Below, piece by piece: positions 13 to 44,146 of a stretch of 64,000 nt of DNA. How positions within the stretch are numbered: position 1 is the stretch's first letter; each line of letters begins with the position of its first letter. The position numbers and the translations under genes are program-made. Source of the stretch: Phycisphaerae bacterium (lineage in GTDB: Bacteria; Planctomycetota; Phycisphaerae; Phycisphaerales; Phycisphaeraceae); the NCBI GenBank assembly GCA_030425705.1, contig JAUHZU010000014.1:1-64000 (forward strand), written 5' to 3'. The notes beneath the pieces were generated by a model. The model ran no database searches and was not told the DNA's origin. It worked only from the letters and a program-made list of their open reading frames with translations.

Positions 13-840
13 ATGTCGAGCCGTCGTGCGTTTACGTTGATTGAGTTGTTGGTGGTGATCTCGATCATCGCGTTACTGATCGCGATCCTGTTGCCGGCGT
101 TGGGGGCGGCGCGGCAGACGGCGCGGGACATCTCGTGCCAGAGCAACATGCGGGGGATCGGGCTGTGCTTCGTGGCGTTCTCGACGGACCACAAGGACCG
201 TCTGCCGGCGACGGGCAAGGACTTCGGGTTCGTGAACATGGTCGGTCCGGGCCCGGACGACCGGTCGTGGATCGGGCAGGAGGCCTGGCCGGTCGCGGCG
301 GGGGGCGTGAACCACGACGGCGTGCTGCTGGACTACCTGGGCAACCAGGGGGTGGACGAGGCGGTGGTCGGGGACAAGGGCAACGTGCCGGCGTACCTGT
401 GCCCGCAGCTGCAGACGCGTGGGGGGATCGGCGACGGGACGGGGTCCAACGGCCGGTTCGACTACATGGGGGTGTACGCATTCACGGGGGCGAACGTGGA
501 CCGGGTGCCGCTGGAGTGCGAGTACCGCGAGTCGACGTCGCCGGACTACACCGACGCGTATGTGCCGATCGTGCTGGAAGAAGACCCGGCGTTCTACGGC
601 GGGACGTCGGGCACGGACCCGGGCCACGCGGGGGCGGACCGGATGTCGACGATCCACACGAACAAATCCAGCCACTACTTCGCGGTGGACGGCTCGATGC
701 ACACGTACAACGGCGTGACGGAGAACGAGGGCGTGCTGGTCAACGGCTGGCGGGTCGAGACCCCGTCGGGCAACTTCGCGACGCTGCAGTGGTCGACCAC
801 CGACGGCGTCAACGCCTGGGGCGCCTGGGACTCGCGGTGA
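13..840 (+). CDS. Prepilin-type N-terminal cleavage/methylation protein (pseudopilin-like)
   Basis: The 275-residue protein opens with a short basic stretch, then the class III signal [20 protein letters not shown]: prepilin peptidase would cut before the Phe, and Glu+5 and the hydrophobic helix follow. Such proteins are processed at the inner membrane and enter type II secretion or type IV pilus-like assemblies. Near the end, a His at about residue 214 is followed ten residues later by Asp-Gly, close to the H-X9-DG tail common in planctomycete pseudopilins. AGGAG at 1-5 sits 7 nt before the ATG and supports this start. The upstream neighbour is outside the window. The family assignment is firm; the cargo or role is unknown. 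Confidence 0.88.
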
Positions 841-929
841 GACACGGGAGCTGCTGAGCCGACACGATTCATAGGTTCGGCTGACTCCTTGTGACGTGAC
901 GGCATCAGCATTGGAAGAATCTTCGTGCG

Positions 930-954
930 AGACACACTTATCCACAGTGTGTCT
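930..954 (+). terminator. Terminator-like hairpin after the pseudopilin gene
   Basis: A perfect 9-bp stem (AGACACACT at 930-938 with AGTGTGTCT at 946-954) encloses a 7-nt loop and is followed by a T-rich stretch (TTCACTTTAA). It lies 90 nt past the pseudopilin stop and before the promoter-like sequence at 970. The T tract is imperfect, so termination strength is uncertain. Confidence 0.5.
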
Positions 955-969
955 TTCACTTTAACGGTG

Positions 970-998
970 TTGACAAATCCAGAACGGCGCGCGATAAA
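970..998 (+). promoter_or_regulatory. Sigma70-type promoter candidate upstream of the RHS locus
   Basis: A perfect -35 hexamer TTGACA (970-975) is followed by a 17-nt spacer and a -10-like GATAAA (993-998, 4 of 6 consensus positions). It lies 122 nt upstream of the gene at 1121 and could drive that gene and the RHS gene behind it. Only the sequence match supports it. Confidence 0.5.
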
Positions 999-1120
999 CA
1001 CACGCTTACGGGGCTCCTCATTTCCGGGGGGCCACAACAACCTGGACCGTCGTTACACAGCGTCTGTGTGCGCGATTTGTATCCAGCGTTTGACTCCACC
1101 CCTTTCCGAGGTGCAGGAAG

Positions 1121-1981
1121 ATGTGGCGAAACACATACCATCGGGGCCTGTTTCAAGGTCTAACGGCGATCGGATTGGCGGGGTTAGCAGCCGCCGGGCT
1201 CGCCTGGTCGCGTCCCCCCACGCCGATGAAAAGTCACTGCCAGGGGGCATTGATCGGCAAGCGAGCGATGCAGAGCGGGGACGATCCCGCGATCGAATCC
1301 TTGCCGGGGCAGGAGCCCGCGTTCTATGACCGGGTACGGCGCATGTGTCGGGGTGCGGCGTTGACCAGCCACGACCTTGCCGCGCTGTGCTTGGACACGG
1401 AGCAGGCCGGCGAGGTGCTGTCGCGCCTGTTGGATTGGACGCTCACCCATCAGGCCGACATGATCGCCGCGGACAACCGGGCGGAGTCGGCGCGGCAGGC
1501 GCTGGTGTCGCATGTCCGCCGAGTCCGCGTCGGCGAAGAGTCTGACGATGCGGGTTCGGAACTCACCCGACTGCAGCGGGATGTTTACGCGGCCGAGTCG
1601 GATTGTCGTGCGTGGTGCCTGAAAGCCGGGGAGTACGCAACCGCCACGCTGCCCAACAACGCCGCGCGTCAGTGGCGGCAGGCAGCCGGTCATCTCGGAC
1701 TTCCGGTGGGATTGCGCCACGTGCCCGGCCTAAGCCGGTTGAACCGCGAGGCCTTGCTCCAAGCCATCGCTTCCGAGGCGGGCCCGCCTGCCTCCGATGT
1801 GGCGGCGGTTCAGAATGCGACAGGCCTGTCTCATTCGGTTGCGGCGCAGCTCCGCCAGGTCCACGCTGATATCCAGGCCCACCTGCCCGGTGTACGCGCC
1901 GCGGAACGGCGGCTGTTCCCGCAGCCCACGCCGATCGACGATGCGTCCGGGTTCTGGCCAGATGAGTCCGACAACGACTAG
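1121..1981 (+). CDS. Hypothetical membrane-anchored protein upstream of RHS gene
   Basis: The 286-residue product is not one I recognise. Residues about 10-29 form a hydrophobic segment (GLTAIGLAGLAAAGLAW) that looks like a signal anchor; the rest is soluble and helix-rich, with several Leu/Ala/Arg heptad-like stretches between residues 90 and 260 and an acidic C-terminus. An AGGAAG purine run lies just before the ATG. The gene ends 88 nt before the RHS start and probably shares its transcript, so it may help export or assemble the RHS protein, but nothing in the sequence shows this. Composition matches the chromosome. Confidence 0.6.
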   Translation: MWRNTYHRGLFQGLTAIGLAGLAAAGLAWSRPPTPMKSHCQGALIGKRAMQSGDDPAIESLPGQEPAFYDRVRRMCRGAALTSHDLAALCLDTEQAGEVLSRLLDWTLTHQADMIAADNRAESARQALVSHVRRVRVGEESDDAGSELTRLQRDVYAAESDCRAWCLKAGEYATATLPNNAARQWRQAAGHLGLPVGLRHVPGLSRLNREALLQAIASEAGPPASDVAAVQNATGLSHSVAAQLRQVHADIQAHLPGVRAAERRLFPQPTPIDDASGFWPDESDND

Positions 1982-2069
1982 TCCGCAACCACGCCACGTC
2001 GTGGTCAGAGTTTATGCGATTCCGGGACCGGTCATGCCGGCTCGATGCCCAAGCCAATTGGATACCGCT

Positions 2070-5000
2070 ATGACCAACTTCTCTCGCTTGTTCGCCAGGA
2101 TGCCTGAACTCCTCGCCGCTGTAGTGGCGCTGCTGCTGATCGTTCCTGTACCGACGCTGATCGCACAGGAGGGTGAGGACACCTACGACGAAGTCACCTC
2201 CCCGGACCCGGACGCACGGAAGCTGCCGATCGAGGAGGCGATGCGGGAGTACAACGCGCGGTTCTGCGTAGTGTCCATCGTCGAGACGGTCGATGAGTTC
2301 GACCCGCAGGACCTGTACGACCCCATGTACTGGGATCACTGCTACCCCTGGCCCGACTCTCTGGGGTGTGGCGGTGGACCGACCTGGCCAACACCACCCA
2401 AGCCCGAGGACGGGTGGTACGGCCCGTCGGTGTACGACGACCCGATGGAGGCGGCCTTCCTGACCCAGGCGATCGTTCTGGCGTTCTACGACGGCGAGCC
2501 CGTGGAGACCGGCGGACCGTTGTACGGCTATTTCATTAACCCGGAAGAAGCCATCGAGAACGCCAATGTCGTCGCGCTGACCGAAGACGATTTCCCATTG
2601 ACCTGGCTCGCGGGCGCGCCGGTCTGGAGCAATGCCCCCTCGAGTATCGACGACATCGTGACGGTCGAGAACTACGAGGAGGTGCTGGACATCATCCTCA
2701 GCTACATCCGGCAGCTCGGTGCGACAGGTGCCGGTGGACCGGGTGGCACGACCGATCCGATGCAGAAGGCGGGGAACGGATCGGACAGCATCCAGCTCCC
2801 CGAGGGGATCCCGCCGGAGCTCGCCGTGGCCTGGGCAGACATGGCACAGGCGTTCGAGAACGATGACCCCGCGGCCCCCTCGAGCGGCGGCGGTGTCCTC
2901 GCGTCGTACACGCAGAACGCGATCGGCCACAACCCGAACCCGGTGCCGACAAGCATCCTTGTCGGCTACATCGAGATGATCTCGGACCTCGTGCTGATCG
3001 ACGCGGACGCGCATACCGGCGAGACGGCGGCGGTCTACATATTCGTCGATGAGTTTCACGCGCCGAACCTCGGCCCGCATATCCCGGGCATGATGCAACT
3101 CGTGGGCAACAACGAATACGGGCAATGGACCCAGCTCACCAACGCGGGCCAGACGATCAACGCCGGGGACCTGGTGAATGGCGACCTGATCGTTGAACTA
3201 CCCCTCGCGTTTTCAGAAGCCGCGCCGCCCCCGCCCGGCAGCGAGACCGGGACGGGGCTCTACAACGACACCTACGGCTGGCAGCTCAACGGTGTGGCCT
3301 GGCTGACAAGCAAGTATCCGCCGTTCGATACCAGCCCCTCGTACGAACCCGAGCAGGAGGAGGGGGCCAACGACGGCAAGCCCGGCGGCGGCGAGGCCCC
3401 GGACGCCGATTTGTCCGAAGACGGCGGGGCGGAACTCGCGCACGACGCTGGCAACACGGACGATGGGAACCGGACCGGCACGCTGAGTGTCGACGCGGAC
3501 AAGCCACGTGAGGATATCGGCGACCCGTCCTCACTCACCGGCACGTTCCACCCGTCCGTGGAGACGCCGGGATCGAACCGCGTGATCCGAGACGAAGACG
3601 GTCGCGTGCAGCAGGTCATGAACGGCCTGTTCAATCCCAGTGCAGCGTCACCCAGTGACCACCGGGTGCATTCGCTCGTGCATGTCGATCCGCTCCCTGC
3701 GACAAGCCACTCGTACGCGGTGGAGTACTACGCCGATGCGCACTGGGACAGTACCAACAGCGACTGGGACCCGCAGGGCGATCCATTCCGCCGGGTCACG
3801 GTCGAAGACACCAGCTCCGGGACGGACGGTACGAGCTTCCGTGTCACCAACGAGACCTTCGACGGCCAAACCCTGCTGGGCAGCGATGTCTCCGAGTTTG
3901 CCTGGGATGCAACCCACGAACGCTGGGTACTCGCGGAAGGCGTGGTCAACGGTGTGGCCGCGCGCAAGCGGTGGACCGAAGTAGCCGGGTCCAATGGGTT
4001 CCGGACAGTGACGCGCATCATCACCGGCGACAACACTTCCCAGATCGTCTCGAAGGTCGAGGAAGACTACCGATCGGTCGGCGACGGCTGGCAGCTGCTT
4101 GAACGCCGTGTGGTGTCGGCCGACGGTGGGGCCGGGCCAGACACCTACGCCTGGACCGAGTCCTGGACCTATACGTCCGCGGGGGATGTGCGTTCGTATC
4201 ACCACAGTAACGGGGCCTGGGTCTACTTCATTTACGACGCGGCCAACGGCCGACTGCTTAAGTCGATCACCCCGCTTGGGGACGCGGGTGCATACGACCC
4301 GCTGGACCCGGATGCCGAGGTCCCGCACCTGGTGACGACACGTCGCCGGCAGGCCAGCGACCTGAACGACACGCACACCGGAGACCGCGCGGAGATCATT
4401 CAGGAAACGATCCAGTGGATCGAAGACCCCTCGAACCCCGGCACGCAGATCGCGGCCAGCACCACATACCGCGTGACGTGGTCCTACGCGCCGACCAGCG
4501 GCGAGTACGAGGTGTGGGAGATCGCCTGCAACGACGGGGACCCGAAATCCGGCTATGCGGGTGCAGATGATGAAGCAAAGACAGTCGCTTTCCTCAATGC
4601 GTTGCTGGCCGACAGCGACCATCTGGGGCACCGCGTCACGCGGACCGTTCATCACGCGCCGGGTGAGTCGATGCGGTTCAAGATCAAGGCCGTCTACTAC
4701 CCCGATGGCACGGTCTCACTCCGATCGCGAAGCATGGCGGGCACGGTCCGGACGCGCGTCGCCGAGCACGGGTACCCCGCGTATGACACGAACGGGCAGG
4801 TCGTCGGCATCGCCCACGGCACGCGCACCACCGCTCAGGTCGACACCGCGAATCACACCGAGTCGATCCTCCATGAGCAACGCGTGCGCGGGGGGAACTG
4901 GGTCACGACGTCGCTGTCCCGCTCGTCCGCTGCCGATGAGTTAGGACGAGTGACCGGGTTTGAGTATTTCTACGGGAGCAACGCCGCAACCCCCGGCACA

Positions 5001-10292: not shown

Positions 10293-11990
10293 ATGCGCAG
10301 CCGCGTCCTGACCACGGCCCCCGGCGCGGCGGGCGGGCGGTTCCTGACGCGCGACCCCGCCGGCAATATTGACGGCGAAAACCGCTACGTCGGCCACTTC
10401 CTGCACCAGGGCACCACCGACCCCTACGGCCTGTTCGGCACCGAAGCGGTCGCACGCGAGATCCGCGCCGCCGCCGAGGAAGCAACACGCATCAAACAGG
10501 AGATCCAAGCCGAGACACGCATACTCGGCACCCGCGCCTCCATCTACCAGGAACGCATCGGCGACTGCCCGATCGACTGGGGCGCGTTCAGCGCCGAGTA
10601 CGAGTACCTCGCAAAGCTGGATCGGGAGTACCACGCAACACTGTTCAGCGGGTACGCCGCCTACCTGATGGCGGTGGAAGACACCAGTCTGCTTGAAGGC
10701 ATCAGCCAGACCGTCAGCGATGGGATCAACGAGCACTACCGCGGCAAGGACACCGCCACCGCAGCCGTGGATGCGCTCTTCCGACACGGCTGGGCCAACG
10801 GGTTCTTCGAGAACTCGGAGGACGAGGACTACCAACAATCCATCCTGAATACGTATGCCGGGTACAACCAGCGGTTGGGTAAGGCCGCCAACCGCAACGC
10901 GCAGATTGCCGGCGTGACCTATCAGGTCGCCTGGTGGGCGGACAAGGTGCTGATGGCCGCGGGTGCCGCAGGCGGTGTCGCACAGGTCGGGCTGAAGGCC
11001 GCGGTCTGCGGTACGGCCAAGGCAATCGTCGCGGGGGCCCTCGCAGACGCGGCGCTCGGTGCCTCCATCGAATACTTCGACCTTAATCCAAACATCCGTC
11101 TCGCGCTACAGGTCGGCCGAGTCGCGATCGCGGCGCTGAGCAGCAAACGCGCCTGTTTCCCGGCCGGCACAACGGTCTGGATCGCTGACGAAACGACCGG
11201 GCAACTCCTCGCGGTACCGATCGAGACGGTCGTCCCGGGCGAGCGGGTGTGGTCGTACGACCCAGAGTCCGGCACCTGGGAGGCGTGCGTCGTCGAGGCG
11301 GCCTACGAGCTTCCTTACGACGGGGAAATCGTCGAGATCACGCTGATGGTGTCGGGGATGGGCCCGCTGACGGAGTCGGTGAGCGCGACGGGCAACCACC
11401 CGTTCTGGGTGGATATGGCGGCTTCCGGGGCCCCCGCGCTCACCGCCCGTCCGCTGGCGCTGCACCACACCGGCCCGGACGCCGAGTACGTCGGCCCCCG
11501 CGGCGGCCGATGGGTCCAGGCCCGGCACCTCACCCCGGGTGACATCCTCCTGCTCAAGGACGGCCGCAGCGCCACCGTCTGCGGCCTCACCGTCCGCAGT
11601 GAACGCACCCACGTCTACAACCTCTCCGTCGAACGCCTCCACAACTACACAGTTGGCACCAGCGGGGTGTTGGTGCATAATGGAAACTGCTGGAAGAAAG
11701 GTGATCCAATCACGGCCCCGACCCGAAATGGGTACCCAAGCTGGAGCACCGTACGGCGCAGGTATTGGATAAACCGAGGTACTGATGGTCGTGCCCCTAC
11801 AAGGCAAGTACGAGTCAGAGATCGCCGAACAAAGGAAGTTCGTACTATCACTGAGCGAAGGGAACTACATCATCGCAGAGGTAGAAGTGGCGATGATCCA
11901 CATAATGAGGATGGGCTGGAAGAAGTGTGGCCTTCAGAACATGAGTTGGTCGATCCTGATCGCCATACAAACTACGATGTTATTGGATGA
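10293..11990 (+). CDS. RHS core C-terminus - Hint autoprotease - HNH-type nuclease toxin (continuation of the RHS gene)
   Basis: The frame is that of the RHS gene, resuming after the TAG; ATG 10293 is only the first available internal start. Residues 10-50 hold the core end (GRFLTRDP, then DPYGL). A helical linker of about 230 residues follows. A Hint domain runs from Cys288 (CFPAGTTVWIADE) through TGNHPFWV to VHN near nt 11681, the arrangement used for self-cleavage. The last ~100 residues contain RRELHHRRGRSG, then EVWPSEHELVDPDRH, a His-rich pattern like HNH/ENDO VII toxins (LHH/GHH-type), so a DNase or RNase activity is likely. GC content falls sharply at the toxin tip, as expected for swapped toxin modules. 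The end overlaps the next gene by 4 nt. Without read-through this part would lack the export signal. Confidence 0.8.
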   Translation: MRSRVLTTAPGAAGGRFLTRDPAGNIDGENRYVGHFLHQGTTDPYGLFGTEAVAREIRAAAEEATRIKQEIQAETRILGTRASIYQERIGDCPIDWGAFSAEYEYLAKLDREYHATLFSGYAAYLMAVEDTSLLEGISQTVSDGINEHYRGKDTATAAVDALFRHGWANGFFENSEDEDYQQSILNTYAGYNQRLGKAANRNAQIAGVTYQVAWWADKVLMAAGAAGGVAQVGLKAAVCGTAKAIVAGALADAALGASIEYFDLNPNIRLALQVGRVAIAALSSKRACFPAGTTVWIADETTGQLLAVPIETVVPGERVWSYDPESGTWEACVVEAAYELPYDGEIVEITLMVSGMGPLTESVSATGNHPFWVDMAASGAPALTARPLALHHTGPDAEYVGPRGGRWVQARHLTPGDILLLKDGRSATVCGLTVRSERTHVYNLSVERLHNYTVGTSGVLVHNGNCWKKGDPITAPTRNGYPSWSTVRRRYWINRGTDGRAPTRQVRVRDRRTKEVRTITERRELHHRRGRSGDDPHNEDGLEEVWPSEHELVDPDRHTNYDVIG

Positions 11991-12499
11991 TTGTCATGAT
12001 CGCAGAGATTATTGACCTGCTGGATAGCAAAGAGTGGGTATGCATCGAGGATTCTGTTGCTGAAGCTGCTGGCCTGAAAGTGTATCGAGATCGCAGTGCA
12101 TATAGCGTGATTGCTGTTGCCAAGATTTTAGAACGGGAATTGGCTGCGGCATCACTAACGGTACTAGAGGCGAAAGAAGTTGTACTTGCTGACATAGACT
12201 ATTTTTCACGGTTTGTTACATCTTGGCTAAATAGCGAGTATGCCAAAGACGATTCACAAGAGTATCCTAAGTACGAGCCGCCGGAAAAGTATCTCGACGA
12301 CCCAAAACCAGTAGAGCACGGTTTGTCCGAGGGTTTTGCCTTGGGTTACGCAGGAATGTATCGATTCCTTTCCTCAGGAGATACTGGGGGCTTAATTGCT
12401 TATTGCAAAGCGATTCGTGTACCCCATGCCCGACTGTTTGCACAAAAAATACAGAATGTGTATGTGCACTCCCAGAATAATCGACCTAGAGGTCGATAG
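11987..12499 (+). CDS. Probable immunity protein to the RHS nuclease toxin
   Basis: The 170-residue protein is acidic, soluble and not one I recognise. Its start overlaps the toxin stop as ATGA, the usual coupling of toxin and immunity genes; ATG 11996 is an alternative start. The segment is about 37-48% G+C by line, far below the flanks, matching the toxin tip and pointing to acquisition as one cassette. The immunity role is inferred from position and composition only. A short palindrome (ATCGACCT/AGGTCGAT) spans its stop codon. Confidence 0.65.
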   Translation: MIVMIAEIIDLLDSKEWVCIEDSVAEAAGLKVYRDRSAYSVIAVAKILERELAAASLTVLEAKEVVLADIDYFSRFVTSWLNSEYAKDDSQEYPKYEPPEKYLDDPKPVEHGLSEGFALGYAGMYRFLSSGDTGGLIAYCKAIRVPHARLFAQKIQNVYVHSQNNRPRGR

Positions 12500-40775: not shown

Positions 40776-41633
40776 ATGCCCGTACTGAAGTCACAACTCG
40801 CGCCGCCCGCGATGAAAGAGGCGATCGTCTTAGACCTCGGGGACTTGGGCGCACAAGCCGCGCGGATCCGCGAGCAGGCGGCCCGGCAGGCGGAGGAAAC
40901 GCTTGCGGCCGCCCGGGCCAAGGCCGACGCGCTGGTCGCGGACGCGTTGGCCCAGGCCGAGCAGCGCGGCTACGCCGAAGGCCTCGCCAAGGGGACGGCC
41001 GAAGGCACCGAGCAGGGCCGCGCCCAGGCCTTGGCCGACGCCGCGGAGAAGCTGGATCACCTCACCGAGGCGTGGTCGCAGGCGGCGACAGCGTTTGACC
41101 AGCAGCGGCAGTCCATGGACCGCGAGGCGCGGGAGGCGGTGCTCGCGTTCGCGTTGCGCGCGGCCGAGAAGATCGTGCACCGGACGATCGAGACCGACAC
41201 GCAGGTTGCTGCCCGGCAGGTCGAGGCCGCGCTCGAAGCGGTGCTCTGGCCTCACGACGTCACGGTCTGTATCCACCCCGAGGACCGCGCCGCGGTTGAA
41301 GAAGCGCTGCCGCAACTGACCGCGAAGTTTGGCGCGCTCGGCCGCGTATCGCTGGTCGAAGACGACGCCGTCGGGCGGGGCGGCTGTGTGCTCAAGACCC
41401 TGAGCGGTTCGTCTGGTGCCGCGGCCGGTGGGCAGATCGACGCGACGATCCAGACGCAGTTGGATCGCCTGGCGGAACTGCTCCTGCCAGGTAGCGCCGC
41501 GCCAGCGGACGCCTCTGCAGAAGGACCTCTCGTAATGGAAGAAGCCGCGTCCGATGACTTCGCCGAACCGATCAAAGACAACGCGGCTTCGGAAACACCG
41601 CCCGATGACGAGCCCGCCGGGGAGAGCGCGTGA
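40776..41633 (+). CDS. fliH: Flagellar assembly protein FliH
   Basis: The stalk that regulates the FliI ATPase. The 285-residue protein has a long N-terminal helix with GxxxG-like repeats (QRGYAEGLAKGTAEGTEQGRAQAL), typical of FliH, followed by the conserved C-terminal domain (REAVLAFALRAAEKIVHRTIETD, WPHDVTVCIHPEDRAAVEEAL, DDAVGRGGCVLKTLSGS-x-DATIQTQLDRLAELLL). An acidic tail of about 50 residues is extra. It overlaps fliI by 4 nt (GTGA), so translation is coupled. Confidence 0.92.
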   Translation: MPVLKSQLAPPAMKEAIVLDLGDLGAQAARIREQAARQAEETLAAARAKADALVADALAQAEQRGYAEGLAKGTAEGTEQGRAQALADAAEKLDHLTEAWSQAATAFDQQRQSMDREAREAVLAFALRAAEKIVHRTIETDTQVAARQVEAALEAVLWPHDVTVCIHPEDRAAVEEALPQLTAKFGALGRVSLVEDDAVGRGGCVLKTLSGSSGAAAGGQIDATIQTQLDRLAELLLPGSAAPADASAEGPLVMEEAASDDFAEPIKDNAASETPPDDEPAGESA

Positions 41634-42988
41634 GTCTGCTCACGGACCAACTCGGTCTCATCCATGACGCGGTCACGCTGGAGGTCGTGGGGGCCGTGCG
41701 CGATGTGCGCGGGTTGTCGGCCCGGGTTGCAGCGCTGCCGGTGCCCATCGGGACGCAGGTCACCATCGCGACCGGGCGCGGCCGGGGGCCCTTGGTCGCC
41801 GGCGAGGTGGTGGGCTTCGAGGGCGTGTTGGCGGTCGTGATGGCGCTGGGCCCGCTCGCGGGGGTCGGGCCGGGCGACCCGGTGACTGCCGGTCAGCACG
41901 CGCAGCAGGTGCGGGTGGGCTCGTCGCTGCTGGGGCGTGTGCTGGATGGGTTGGGGCGTCCGATGGACGGGCTCGGCCCGCTGCGCGACACCGTGCCCCG
42001 GCCGCTGCAGCCGAGCCCGGTCGACGCGTTGTCCCGCCCGCCGATCGACGAGCCGCTGGCGACGGGGGTCCGCGCCGTGGACGGCATGACGACCCTGGGC
42101 AAGGGCCAACGCCTGGGCGTCTTTGCCGGGCCGGGCTGCGGCAAGTCCACGCTGCTGGGCATGATGGCGCGGCAGACCGAGGCGGACGTCAGCGTGATCG
42201 CGCTCGTCGGCGAACGCGGCCGCGAGGTGCGCGACTTTATCGACAAGGTGCTGGGCCCCGAGGGCCTGGCGCGCAGCGTCGTGGTCTGCGCGACCGGCGA
42301 TGAGCCCGCGCTGCTGCGTGTCCGCGCGGCGCTGGTCGCGACCACCATCGCCGAGCACTTCCGCGACCAGGGGCTGGACACCCTGTTGCTGGTCGACTCG
42401 GTGACCCGGCTGTGCCAGGCCCAGCGGCAGATCGGTCTCGCGGCGGGCGAGCCGCCGGCGACGCGCGGCTACCCGCCCAGCGTGTTCTCGCTGCTGCCCG
42501 AGCTGCTCGAGCGTTCCGGCCGGACTCCGTCGGGCTCGATCACCGGGCTCTACGCCGTGCTCGTCGAGGGCGACGACCTGACCGAGCCCGTGGCCGATGC
42601 GTGCATGGGCGTGCTCGACGGGCACATCGTCCTCTCGCGCAAGCTCGCCGACCGCGGGCACTTCCCCGCGATCGACGTGCTCGGGTCGATCAGCCGGGTG
42701 GCCGGCGAAGTCACACCGAAAGAACACCAGCAGGCGCGGCAGGAGCTGATCCGCCTCGTCGCGGCGTACCGCGACGTCGAGGACCTCCTGAACATCGGCG
42801 CGTATGCCGCGGGCAGCAGCGCCGAGTTCGACCTGGCGATCGCGGCCAAGCCGATGATCGACCAGTTCCTGCGCCAAGGCCGCGGCGAGGGCCCGTCCGA
42901 CGGCCGGGCCTCCATGGCGCACACCCAGTCCCAGCTCGGTGCGATCGTGAAGAGCCTGCAGCAGGCGGGGGCGCAATTGAAGCGATAG
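41630..42988 (+). CDS. fliI: Flagellum-specific ATPase FliI
   Basis: The hexameric ATPase of the flagellar export gate. The 452-residue protein has an F1-beta-like N-terminal barrel, Walker A GPGCGKST (167-174), IALVGERGREVRDFIDKVLG, Walker B DTLLLVDSVTR and the FliI/SctN phrase YPPSVFSLLPELLERSG, then TGLYAVLVEGDDLTEPVADA and DGHIVLSRKLADRGHFPAIDVLGSISRV. The start is GTG, coupled to fliH. Its usual partner fliJ follows only after a 650-nt interruption that carries a foreign-looking gene. Confidence 0.96.
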   Translation: MSLLTDQLGLIHDAVTLEVVGAVRDVRGLSARVAALPVPIGTQVTIATGRGRGPLVAGEVVGFEGVLAVVMALGPLAGVGPGDPVTAGQHAQQVRVGSSLLGRVLDGLGRPMDGLGPLRDTVPRPLQPSPVDALSRPPIDEPLATGVRAVDGMTTLGKGQRLGVFAGPGCGKSTLLGMMARQTEADVSVIALVGERGREVRDFIDKVLGPEGLARSVVVCATGDEPALLRVRAALVATTIAEHFRDQGLDTLLLVDSVTRLCQAQRQIGLAAGEPPATRGYPPSVFSLLPELLERSGRTPSGSITGLYAVLVEGDDLTEPVADACMGVLDGHIVLSRKLADRGHFPAIDVLGSISRVAGEVTPKEHQQARQELIRLVAAYRDVEDLLNIGAYAAGSSAEFDLAIAAKPMIDQFLRQGRGEGPSDGRASMAHTQSQLGAIVKSLQQAGAQLKR

Positions 42989-43036
42989 GCGGTACACCAA
43001 TCGTATGTATGTCATAGGCCACAAGACCGAATCGAA

Positions 43037-43519
43037 ATGCTACAGGATGTACCGCAGTCCGATGTGGGCGCACCATTACCGATGGTCCTATCTTCGGAGT
43101 ACCATCTCCTATTGGCATATCTTGTGCAACAGCCCAACCCAGCGTGGGATGGCTCGAATGTTGAGTTGATTTCGGCAGAGTCTGAAGGTGAAGTGGCGGT
43201 AGTCGAATTCGATAGACCCTCTCTTCATATGTTTGGTCCGCCGTGTGATGAGACATTCAGTAGTCACCCCCTTGCTGGTCGTGGGCTAGAGCCATACTCC
43301 GCTGTAGAAGTCCTTGATTCTTCGTGGAGGCTCCGTCGGATCGAGATGAATCGAGTACACCCGAGACACTCAGATTCACGGTTTGACGACCTGCGGCATT
43401 TTGTATTTACATTTCATGATTCGACTTTTGAGTGCCTTGCTCGTAGTTACTCAGTCAGTTTGACCGATGGGTCGATGCGGGATGTGGCACTCAATATGGC
43501 TAAGAAGCTACGCGCATAG
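43037..43519 (+). CDS. Unknown protein inserted between fliI and fliJ, AT-richer than neighbours
   Basis: A protein of 160 residues (145 from the alternative ATG 43082). Its G+C is about 42-52% per line against about 67% around it, and its codon use (many A/T third positions) differs from all flagellar genes, so recent acquisition is likely. The phrases SSEYHLLLAYLVQQ, LHMFGPPCDETFSSHPLAGRGLEPYSAVEVLDSSWRLRRIEMNRVHPRH and LRHFVFTFHDSTFECLA look like a conserved but unnamed family that I have seen scattered among bacteria. No signal peptide or catalytic motif is evident. The function is unknown; a flagellar role is doubtful. Confidence 0.7.
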   Translation: MLQDVPQSDVGAPLPMVLSSEYHLLLAYLVQQPNPAWDGSNVELISAESEGEVAVVEFDRPSLHMFGPPCDETFSSHPLAGRGLEPYSAVEVLDSSWRLRRIEMNRVHPRHSDSRFDDLRHFVFTFHDSTFECLARSYSVSLTDGSMRDVALNMAKKLRA

Positions 43520-43639
43520 TGCTAGATCCAATGGCATGAGAATCAATTCCAATCCGTTAGTCCACTTCCTGCCGATAGTGTCAGAATACTCGGCTGCATG
43601 GTTTGCCGTAGCCGGTTTCAGGTGCAAGGAGGCGCCGCG

Positions 43640-44146
43640 ATGGCACGATTCACGTTCCGCTACGAGACGATCCTCAAGCACCGCGAGAAGGCCGAGCAGC
43701 TCTGCCAGCGGGCGCTCGCGCAGCTCATGCACGAACGCAACGCGCTGATGCAGCGGCTGGCGCAGATGCAGGAGACGATCGGGCAGGCCAAGCGCGACGC
43801 CGCGTCGGGCCTGGTCGGCACGGTTGACCTGGACCAGGTGGCAGGAATTGCGCGGTACAGCGCAAGATGCACCGCCGACGGCCACGGGCTGGTCCGGCAG
43901 GTCGCGGAGCTGGAAACCCGCGTAGAACAGGCACGAAACCGTCTGATCGAGGCGTCGCGCGAGCGTCAGGCATTGGCTTTGCTAAGGGACAAGCAAGAGC
44001 AGGCCTGGCGGCTCGAACAGCGACGCATGGAGGCGAAGCGGTTCGACGAGCACGCCACCCAGGCCTACGCCCGTAGACCCCAGGCGGAGCCGAGCCCATG
44101 CGTACCCTTGCGACCGCGTTCACACTCGTCCTCATCATCAACCTGA
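43640..44146 (+). CDS. fliJ: Flagellar export protein FliJ
   Basis: The coiled-coil stalk of the FliI ATPase. About 168 residues, beginning MARFTFRYETILKHREKAEQLCQRALAQL, the usual FliJ opening, followed by almost continuous helix with heptads to residue 145 (LETRVEQARNRLIEASRERQALALLRDKQEQAWRLEQRRMEAKRFDEHA). AAGGAGG lies about 9 nt before the ATG at 43640. The last 16 residues overlap the next gene by 49 nt and are probably just overlap read-through. Its position after fliI, though interrupted, supports the call. Confidence 0.87.
   Translation: MARFTFRYETILKHREKAEQLCQRALAQLMHERNALMQRLAQMQETIGQAKRDAASGLVGTVDLDQVAGIARYSARCTADGHGLVRQVAELETRVEQARNRLIEASRERQALALLRDKQEQAWRLEQRRMEAKRFDEHATQAYARRPQAEPSPCVPLRPRSHSSSSST

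Follow-up and report, generated by a model that had tools for sequence, protein, structure and literature searches.

A horizontally acquired gene between fliI and fliJ of a Phycisphaerae bacterium, a probable orphan immunity gene

The insert between fliI and fliJ

In the window (the whole stretch of 64,000 nucleotides of Phycisphaerae DNA that was analysed), a foreign stretch with a single gene separates the flagellar genes fliI and fliJ. FliF, FliG, FliH, FliK, and FlgD were also identified near it by Pfam. The features of the locus are as follows.

41630..42988, + strand: fliI, flagellar export ATPase, left flank (Pfam ATP-synt_ab, 288 bits, and T3SS_ATPase_C)
42989..43639, no strand: foreign stretch between fliI and fliJ, 651 nt, about 51% G+C; a short gap in most relatives
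43005..43010, + strand: ATG-TAT, the 'MY' start of short-type family members, here one base out of frame (frame comparison)
43037..43519, + strand: family gene, 160-aa ORF, proposed orphan immunity protein against a ParBL1-like toxin (homology, tree, model)
43235..43252, + strand: conserved core GPPCDE, family consensus GPPNDE (family alignment)
43394..43435, + strand: conserved core RHFVFTFHDSTFEC, with the invariant H121, F126, F131, and E132 (family alignment)
43520..43639, no strand: 120-nt tail from the ORF to fliJ (attC scan, folding)
43640..44146, + strand: fliJ, right flank (Pfam FliJ PF02050, 44 bits)

The first-pass annotation had described a low-G+C insert of about 650 nt with a 160-residue ORF at 43003-43640. 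The ORF, the extent, and the low G+C content (51.1%) of the insert were confirmed, and its left edge probably needs a small correction. Sequence likeness to the nearest relative ends directly past the fliI stop codon, and therefore the foreign stretch probably starts there, slightly before 43003. The tail ends in GTGCAAGGAGGC ahead of fliJ, which is common to the nearest relative. The mean G+C content of the window is 67.3% with a standard deviation of 4.1 (106 non-overlapping 600-nt pieces), and only two other pieces, from 12000 and 12600, are lower in G+C than the piece over the insert; both sit downstream of another polymorphic toxin gene. The GC3 of the focal ORF is 48%, versus 93% in fliI, 92% in fliG, and 82% in fliH. 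Rfam gave no match at E 1 across 42900-43720. No convincing target-site duplication or terminal repeat was found at the insert. An integron cassette at the focal site was considered and set aside, since a consensus scan and folding gave no attC-like site and the fold of the tail is ordinary; a degenerate site would escape the consensus used in the scan.

Comparison with relatives agrees with the earlier premise that fliI and fliJ are usually adjacent. FliJ matches were obtained in 45 of the 51 genomes of the bacterial family, and 30 loci were compared, the focal one among them. Both genes were placed in 21 of the 29 relatives, after exclusion of five in which one gene was not found and three with a misplaced match. 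In 19 of these 21 the fliI-fliJ gap is 4-122 nt. The two long gaps are 1096 nt in L107 (genome G408) and 932 nt in L130 (G426), the latter at 68% G+C. G408 belongs to the same genus and has the closest FliJ, at 75% identity, and the three remaining genomes of the genus have gaps of 32-53 nt. The G408 insert (L107 405-1500) is unrelated to the focal insert and contains a 117-aa ORF whose N-terminus looks membrane-like and which has a zinc-ribbon-like pattern, as well as repeats of a CGTTCGGATACG-like unit, all by eye. The family gene described below is present in one of the five genus genomes, the focal one, and was not found in the other four searched, two of which are 70% and 89% complete. 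The simplest reading is that the ancestral junction was short and that two sister species took up different DNA there.

These comparisons bear on the idea that the lineage acquired an accessory flagellar or regulatory gene and uses it in export or motility. The gene does lie between fliI and fliJ on their strand, but it was not found in any of the four other genus genomes, the gap is too small for it in 19 of the 21 measurable relatives, and its composition is foreign. Some homologues adjoin unrelated genes, for instance ones that we take from their sequence to be PqqB-like and NuoH-like. A component of flagellar export was rejected on the ground that the gene is not conserved at the locus (4 genus genomes, 21 measurable relatives), and we regard any flagellar role as highly improbable.

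The protein family and its distribution

The focal protein belongs to a real, unnamed family that crosses phyla. A contig scan with the single focal protein found nothing, and a profile scan with an alignment found 79 loci out of 191 candidate stretches. They come from Acidobacteriota, Cyanobacteriota, Planctomycetota, Pseudomonadota, Bacteroidota, Bacillota, Spirochaetota, Verrucomicrobiota, Chloroflexota, and other phyla. Among 392 genomes of the focal phylum, 14 match at E 0.01, of which ten, including the focal genome, are convincing; the other four (E 0.001-0.005) were dropped, as was L017. Three Paraburkholderia plasmid records match the family. Carriage by phages was tried and rejected, with no match in phage records and none confirmed in viral contigs. 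In Paraburkholderia sp. PGU19 (L015 4992-6774), a ParBc_2 protein (Pfam, 147 bits), which may be a ParB-fold toxin, is encoded two genes after a remote member.

Pfam and NCBIfam have no match to the focal protein at E 10, and the family profiles have no sequence match in the PDB. In scans of 67 members, Pfam returned 13 families for one member each (best E 0.0036), and no two members share a family. PADLOC matched 1 of 12 members (E 0.042), and PHROGs gave three families, with one member each of 12. All of these were taken as chance. The NCBIfam scan of the family covered the focal protein and L027. Because no Pfam or NCBIfam model matched in the scans made, we do not file the family under SUKH.

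The core that had looked conserved in the focal sequence alone is indeed conserved. When the focal protein is aligned with 66 relatives (13 of the 79 loci, including L030 and L075, were left out for being nearly duplicated, interrupted, or short), four residues, H121, F126, F131, and E132, are invariant, and twelve, F58, G67, P69, D71, E72, H77, G83, S95, W97, D128, C133, and A135, are at least 90% conserved. Models are confident for the focal ORF (mean pLDDT 96.1) and for the full-length L027 protein (95.8). By VIA-align, both models have the same top two PDB matches, 8owu (Z 6.4 for the focal model, 5.6 for L027) and 5v77 (Z 5.6 and 5.5), and the following rows reach 3.6 and 3.3. By Foldseek, 8owu is the best match of the focal model (E 0.086) and the third best of the L027 model (E 0.68), for which 5v77 is best; the best viral match in the structure comparison has E 0.2. 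8owu is the polymorphic toxin PT7(Bc) with its immunity protein PIM7(Bc), and the matched chains D and E may be either partner. Though it is the best VIA-align match of both models, the match is low (Z 6.4 over 93 residues at 4.4 Å), with 5-7% identity across both models and no sequence match. 5v77 is an uncharacterised Neisseria gonorrhoeae protein. These model-based values do not settle the fold of the family.

In the tree, which has 74 rows and omits 6 of 80 sequences (L055, L073, L075, and L081 as interrupted, L089 and L094 as shorter than 95 residues), several supported groups mix phyla. L027 of the Cyanobacteriota pairs with L034 of the Planctomycetota (97/93), and L031, L033, and L045, of three phyla, form one group (100/93). 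The sister group of the focal protein consists of L028 and L030 from Bryobacterales, with support of 96/86 and a bootstrap that is not fully settled. The foreign origin of the gene, which the first-pass annotation had surmised for a single acquired gene, is supported by its composition, its presence in one of five genus genomes searched, the cross-phylum scatter of the family with its mixed groups, and its position in the tree next to toxin-linked copies.

The surroundings of the family vary. By mechanical ORF calls, 27 of the 73 family genes with both neighbours start at most 40 nt behind a same-strand ORF, so that lodging in operons looks common in the family; the count is consistent with family genes that ride host operons. 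In L033, repeated attC-like sites form an integron-like array, and the family gene is one of its cassettes. One such site ends 12 nt upstream of the family start; an apparent second one starts at the family stop, at the contig end. The array (L033 1-6544, closely spaced attC-like sites) belongs to a Thermoanaerobaculia genome, and a DUF4279 gene lies one ORF from the family cassette. Three Aquimarina loci (L063, L066, and L069) have a long-type subfamily with an N-terminal extension. They have the same two upstream neighbours, and thus the gene looks vertically kept there.

The start of the focal gene is irregular. Short-type members begin with 'MYxVD...', 12 codons upstream of L2 of the focal 160-aa ORF. 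The corresponding ATG-TAT does occur, at 43005, but a shift of one base separates its frame from that of the downstream gene, and so ATG 43037 falls inside the family reading frame. The copy may therefore be shortened or dying, with the usual family start codon out of frame: either translation starts at 43037 without the first strand, or the gene is newly broken, or the assembly contains an error. That the copy is a dead remnant of an immunity gene, its start already lost and the rest in decay, would be compatible with the orphan-immunity reading developed below. By eye there is no clear ribosome-binding site ahead of ATG 43037, and 4 of the 79 relatives (L055, L073, L075, and L081) likewise have interrupting stops. 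Nevertheless, 160 codons are open, the family-invariant residues are retained, the model without the first 12 residues is confident throughout, and a single-base assembly error is possible. We consider decay a possibility worth keeping in mind, though on the unlikely side.

Candidate toxin domains and kptA beside family genes

A close relative of the focal gene shows the order toxin domain, family gene, kptA. At L028, all on one strand, an RHS protein (538-3168; RHS repeats by Pfam, E 5e-32) is followed after 22 nt by the family gene (3191-3703) and directly next by kptA. Its sister locus L030 retains this order in part: a domain remnant ends at 482, the family gene is intact (509-1021), and a kptA fragment spans 1055-1294. 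The remnant comprises the last residues of the domain and was matched by eye to the L028 end (profile E 0.08). L028 is the only locus with an intact RHS toxin domain directly ahead of the family gene. In the Flavobacteriaceae locus L087, an RHS-like 1810-aa protein, which clusters with the L028 RHS protein by BLAST, has a C-terminal domain 52% identical to that of L028. The order differs there, as the 1810-aa gene overlaps kptA and the family gene is convergent to kptA. RHS genes were recognised by motif scan and reading at 3 of the 79 loci (L028, L086, and L087); the strict form of the motif had no matches, and its looser form had several evident chance hits.

The same domain ends CdiA-like proteins on plasmids of Duffyella (L136) and Burkholderia ambifaria (L138). 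It also occurs on a plasmid in an unannotated ORF of B. multivorans (L139), and in Mesorhizobium (L137) in an ORF behind an RHS core annotation. Since it takes the C-terminal position in RHS and CdiA-like proteins, we regard the domain as a putative toxin. No library identified it, and Pfam and NCBIfam gave no ParB match. It resembles Tox-ParBL1 as described in PMC3482391, where the domain ends RHS or CdiA-like proteins and carries a motif of the [NT][RT][RT] type. The motif reads NTR in five of the six aligned domains and NTC in L139. A Ser follows the conserved Phe in four of the five rows that cover it (Gly in L087), and this may or may not be the conserved N-terminal Ser of that account. 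A ParB fold is predicted for Tox-ParBL1 there, and the phosphotransferase activity of the superfamily is stressed. The immunity partners listed, Imm-SUKH and Imm44, are unlike the family here, and KptA and Tpt1 are absent from the parts of the account that were available.

The domain was found in 2 of 297 genomes of the L028 phylum, one of them that of L028 itself, in none of 294 genomes of the focal phylum, and in none of 343 and 247 genomes of two further groups; two plasmid searches matched 6 and 5 records. Among genomes with family genes, the toxin profile matches 1 of the 49 searched (27 others, including that of L087, lay outside the search). A subgroup (L140 and L142), from Streptomyces and an Acidobacteriota genome, has NRR in the motif and is followed by a different small protein of 84-89 aa, with no kptA among the ORFs listed.

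Beside the domains of L136-L139 other proteins occupy the immunity position. NCBIfam has no match to them. Compared with the family profile, they give P 0.0027 (0.0021 after trimming) and a score of 24.8, against 21.9 for the best of 150 column shuffles, 16.1 for the reversed profile, and 10.7 for the toxin profile; the hhalign probability is 11-13% only. Three of the four end in RH[FY]SIxFxxEN, and the family ends in RHFxFxFHDS. These likenesses weakly suggest that the family and the L136-L139 proteins may share a common immunity superfamily.

KptA (RNA 2'-phosphotransferase) is the sole protein that adjoins the family gene in four phyla, among 416 neighbours taken at most three per side. Neighbour clustering gave adjacent kptA at L075, L086, L087, and L093, and a profile search added L028 and L030, for a total of 6 of the 79 family loci; none was found flanking the other 73, many of whose flanks are short. 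These are true KptA/Tpt1 RNA 2'-phosphotransferases: against the PF01885 cut-off of 26 bits, the copies at L028, L075, L086, L087, and L093 score 120-166 bits (L086 137), and the L030 fragment scores 43. L086, L087, and L093 fall elsewhere in the tree than the focal protein, and the tree omits L075. In the planctomycete G108 (L025), a truncated kptA lies about 240 nt from a remote relative. From 25 kptA copies, a 12 kb flank, and 5.3 Mb, about 0.06 neighbours would be expected versus the six seen. The Poisson probability is 4e-11 for at least six and 5e-9 for at least five, with L028 and L030 taken as one. These probabilities are flattering because kptA was chosen after inspecting the clusters, but not enough to matter. 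At L093, a second, divergent family member (3798-4889) lies two genes upstream of the family gene that precedes kptA, and its ORF also has a weak leucine-rich-repeat match.

kptA also adjoins the domain itself, at five of the six aligned domains (L028, L087, L136, L138, and L139, but not L137). In Duffyella and B. ambifaria, an annotated kptA lies near the domain with the immunity-position ORF in between; in B. multivorans, a kptA-like ORF was recognised by reading; in Mesorhizobium, no kptA is annotated within 6.3 kb at the domain locus.

Two other explanations were considered. The family gene, kptA, and RHS genes could be generic mobile cargo that co-occurs only through the same variable islands and integrons. 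Most loci indeed have no recognised mobile or toxin partner near the family gene, L033 is an integron cassette, and in L036 and L093 other small genes without a Pfam match adjoin it. However, the three-part order is seen twice, in L028 and L030, the toxin domain lies near kptA in Pseudomonadota too and on other delivery proteins, and KptA alone is the adjacent protein in four phyla. We find such chance association quite improbable. Alternatively, the family protein and KptA could form a stand-alone pair, such as a toxin-antitoxin or RNA-repair module, that RHS toxins adjoin only now and then. The harmful partner could be KptA, which is related to ADP-ribosyltransferase toxins, with the family protein as its antidote. 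At L075 (short flank) and L093 the family gene is followed by a same-strand kptA and no RHS gene was seen ahead; PMC11833690 considers KptA-like toxins, and RNA ends are ADP-ribosylated by KptA-like enzymes. On the other hand, kptA accompanies the toxin domain at L136 and L138, where a different protein takes the immunity position. The sister copies of the focal gene have the toxin domain, intact or as a remnant. Of the 76 genomes of family loci searched, 24 carry kptA, and in 18 of those it lies outside the family-gene flanks (the count excludes L052, and L099 and L100 as the same strain as L095). We give this pairing little credence.

Proposed orphan immunity and a possible conflict system

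We propose that the focal gene came by horizontal transfer, lodged in the flagellar operon, and encodes an orphan immunity protein directed at a ParBL1-like polymorphic toxin; we put the probability of this reading at roughly two in three. A copy of the family stands directly behind the toxin domain at L028 (22 nt) and behind a remnant of that domain at L030; the focal copy is solitary. In the focal genome, no kptA was found, and no match to the L028 domain at E 1e-5, in a search that had no positive control and that a divergent toxin would escape; the window has no toxin-profile match. The sister copies in the tree thus have the toxin domain (or a remnant) and kptA, and neither was found in the focal genome, as would fit an orphan immunity gene; such a copy would protect against the delivered toxin of competitors. 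The excess of kptA beside family genes, the shared 8owu match of both models, the profile likeness of the L136-L139 proteins, the L033 cassette, and the mixed-phylum groups also speak for this reading. Against it stand the single intact RHS domain directly ahead of a family gene, with only a remnant in L030 and a different order in L087, and the small shares of loci with kptA (not found at 73 of 79) or a recognised RHS gene (3 of 79), where many flanks are short. The toxin-profile match in 1 of 49 family-bearing genomes, the low hhalign probability of the L136-L139 comparison, the low structural match, and the out-of-frame start of the focal copy also count against it.

In the proposed course of events, a single gene would have reached the planctomycete by horizontal transfer and settled behind the fliI stop codon, where read-through in the operon could express the protein. 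The family protein would bind an incoming ParBL1-like toxin, neutralise it, and so protect the host. The focal copy would still be functional despite the frame problem at its start. Orphan immunity genes are established elsewhere, according to the available parts of PMC12247911, PMC10539506, and PMC10470768. The focal gene resembles the rAID-type orphan immunity genes, as far as PMC12247911 was available, in being a homologue apparently without its own toxin, horizontally spread and presumed protective. Unlike rAID arrays, it is a lone gene in a flagellar operon, with no array seen. One antidote gene may then travel singly and lodge even in a core flagellar operon, and a family without a name, spread over many phyla, gains a testable role.

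The link to kptA invites a wider and more speculative view, which we offer tentatively and hold to be rather unlikely as a whole. The family, KptA, and the ParBL1-like toxin could be one undescribed conflict system, in which the toxin would 2'-phosphorylate RNA and be blocked by the family protein, and KptA would undo its damage. The toxin would put 2'-phosphates on victim RNA or leave 2'-phosphate ends, and KptA would erase the lesion with NAD+ as a second line of immunity. Alternatively, the toxin would be an RNase whose products are cleaned up via their 2'-phosphate ends. Solitary family genes, as in fliI-fliJ, would be scattered antidotes of the same system.

Several reports, each cited for its available parts, bear on this scheme. 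KptA takes 2'-phosphates off RNA with NAD+; what it does in bacteria is described as a 'longstanding conundrum', and a 2'-OH kinase is mentioned as one possible source of its substrate (PMC6333775). The roles described for KptA/Tpt1 are tRNA splicing and the erasing of 2'-phosphouridine (PMC6333775, PMC9095486), and ArkI and KptA provide natural 2'-phosphorylation and its erasure (PMC9095486). In phages, clean-up of RNase products through 2'-phosphate ends has been proposed for KptA (PMC9503650). The closest parallel is RhsP2/RhsI2/PARG (PMC11833690), with an RHS toxin that acts on the RNA 2'-OH, a binding immunity protein, and a lesion-reversing enzyme: the RhsP2 lesion on RNA can be erased by PARG, with protection comparable to that by the binding immunity protein. 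In that system PARG erases an ADP-ribose lesion; the candidate eraser in the present one is KptA, whose gene lies near that of the toxin. In the literature searched, mainly non-subscription and partly in excerpts, we found no report that ties KptA to ParB-type polymorphic toxin loci and no description of the variant locus type with toxin domain, immunity protein, and KptA; orphan immunity itself is already known. KptA/Tpt1, whose wide presence in bacteria is called a conundrum, would thereby be linked to a proposed interbacterial toxin class. If KptA reverses the action of the toxin, one answer could cover both what bacterial KptA acts on and which chemistry ParBL1-type toxins perform, and bacterial KptA would be a repair enzyme against the weapons of rivals.

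The first-pass interpretation as a whole is partly supported. The search that it proposed for the family and its neighbours led to the 79 cross-phylum loci, a few of them with kptA or RHS neighbours. Its suggestion that the gene is perhaps protective, by likeness to an RHS immunity gene, fits the immunity position of the sister copies behind an RHS domain or remnant. It did not foresee the link with kptA and the ParBL1-like toxin, the other insert in the nearest relative, or the frame problem at the start.

A separate toxin locus spans 10293-12499 of the window. There, the end of a polymorphic toxin (10293-11990), which carries a pretoxin HINT domain (Pfam PT-HINT), is directly followed by a low-G+C ORF of 170 aa (11987-12499), which has no Pfam match and is likely the cognate immunity gene of that toxin end.
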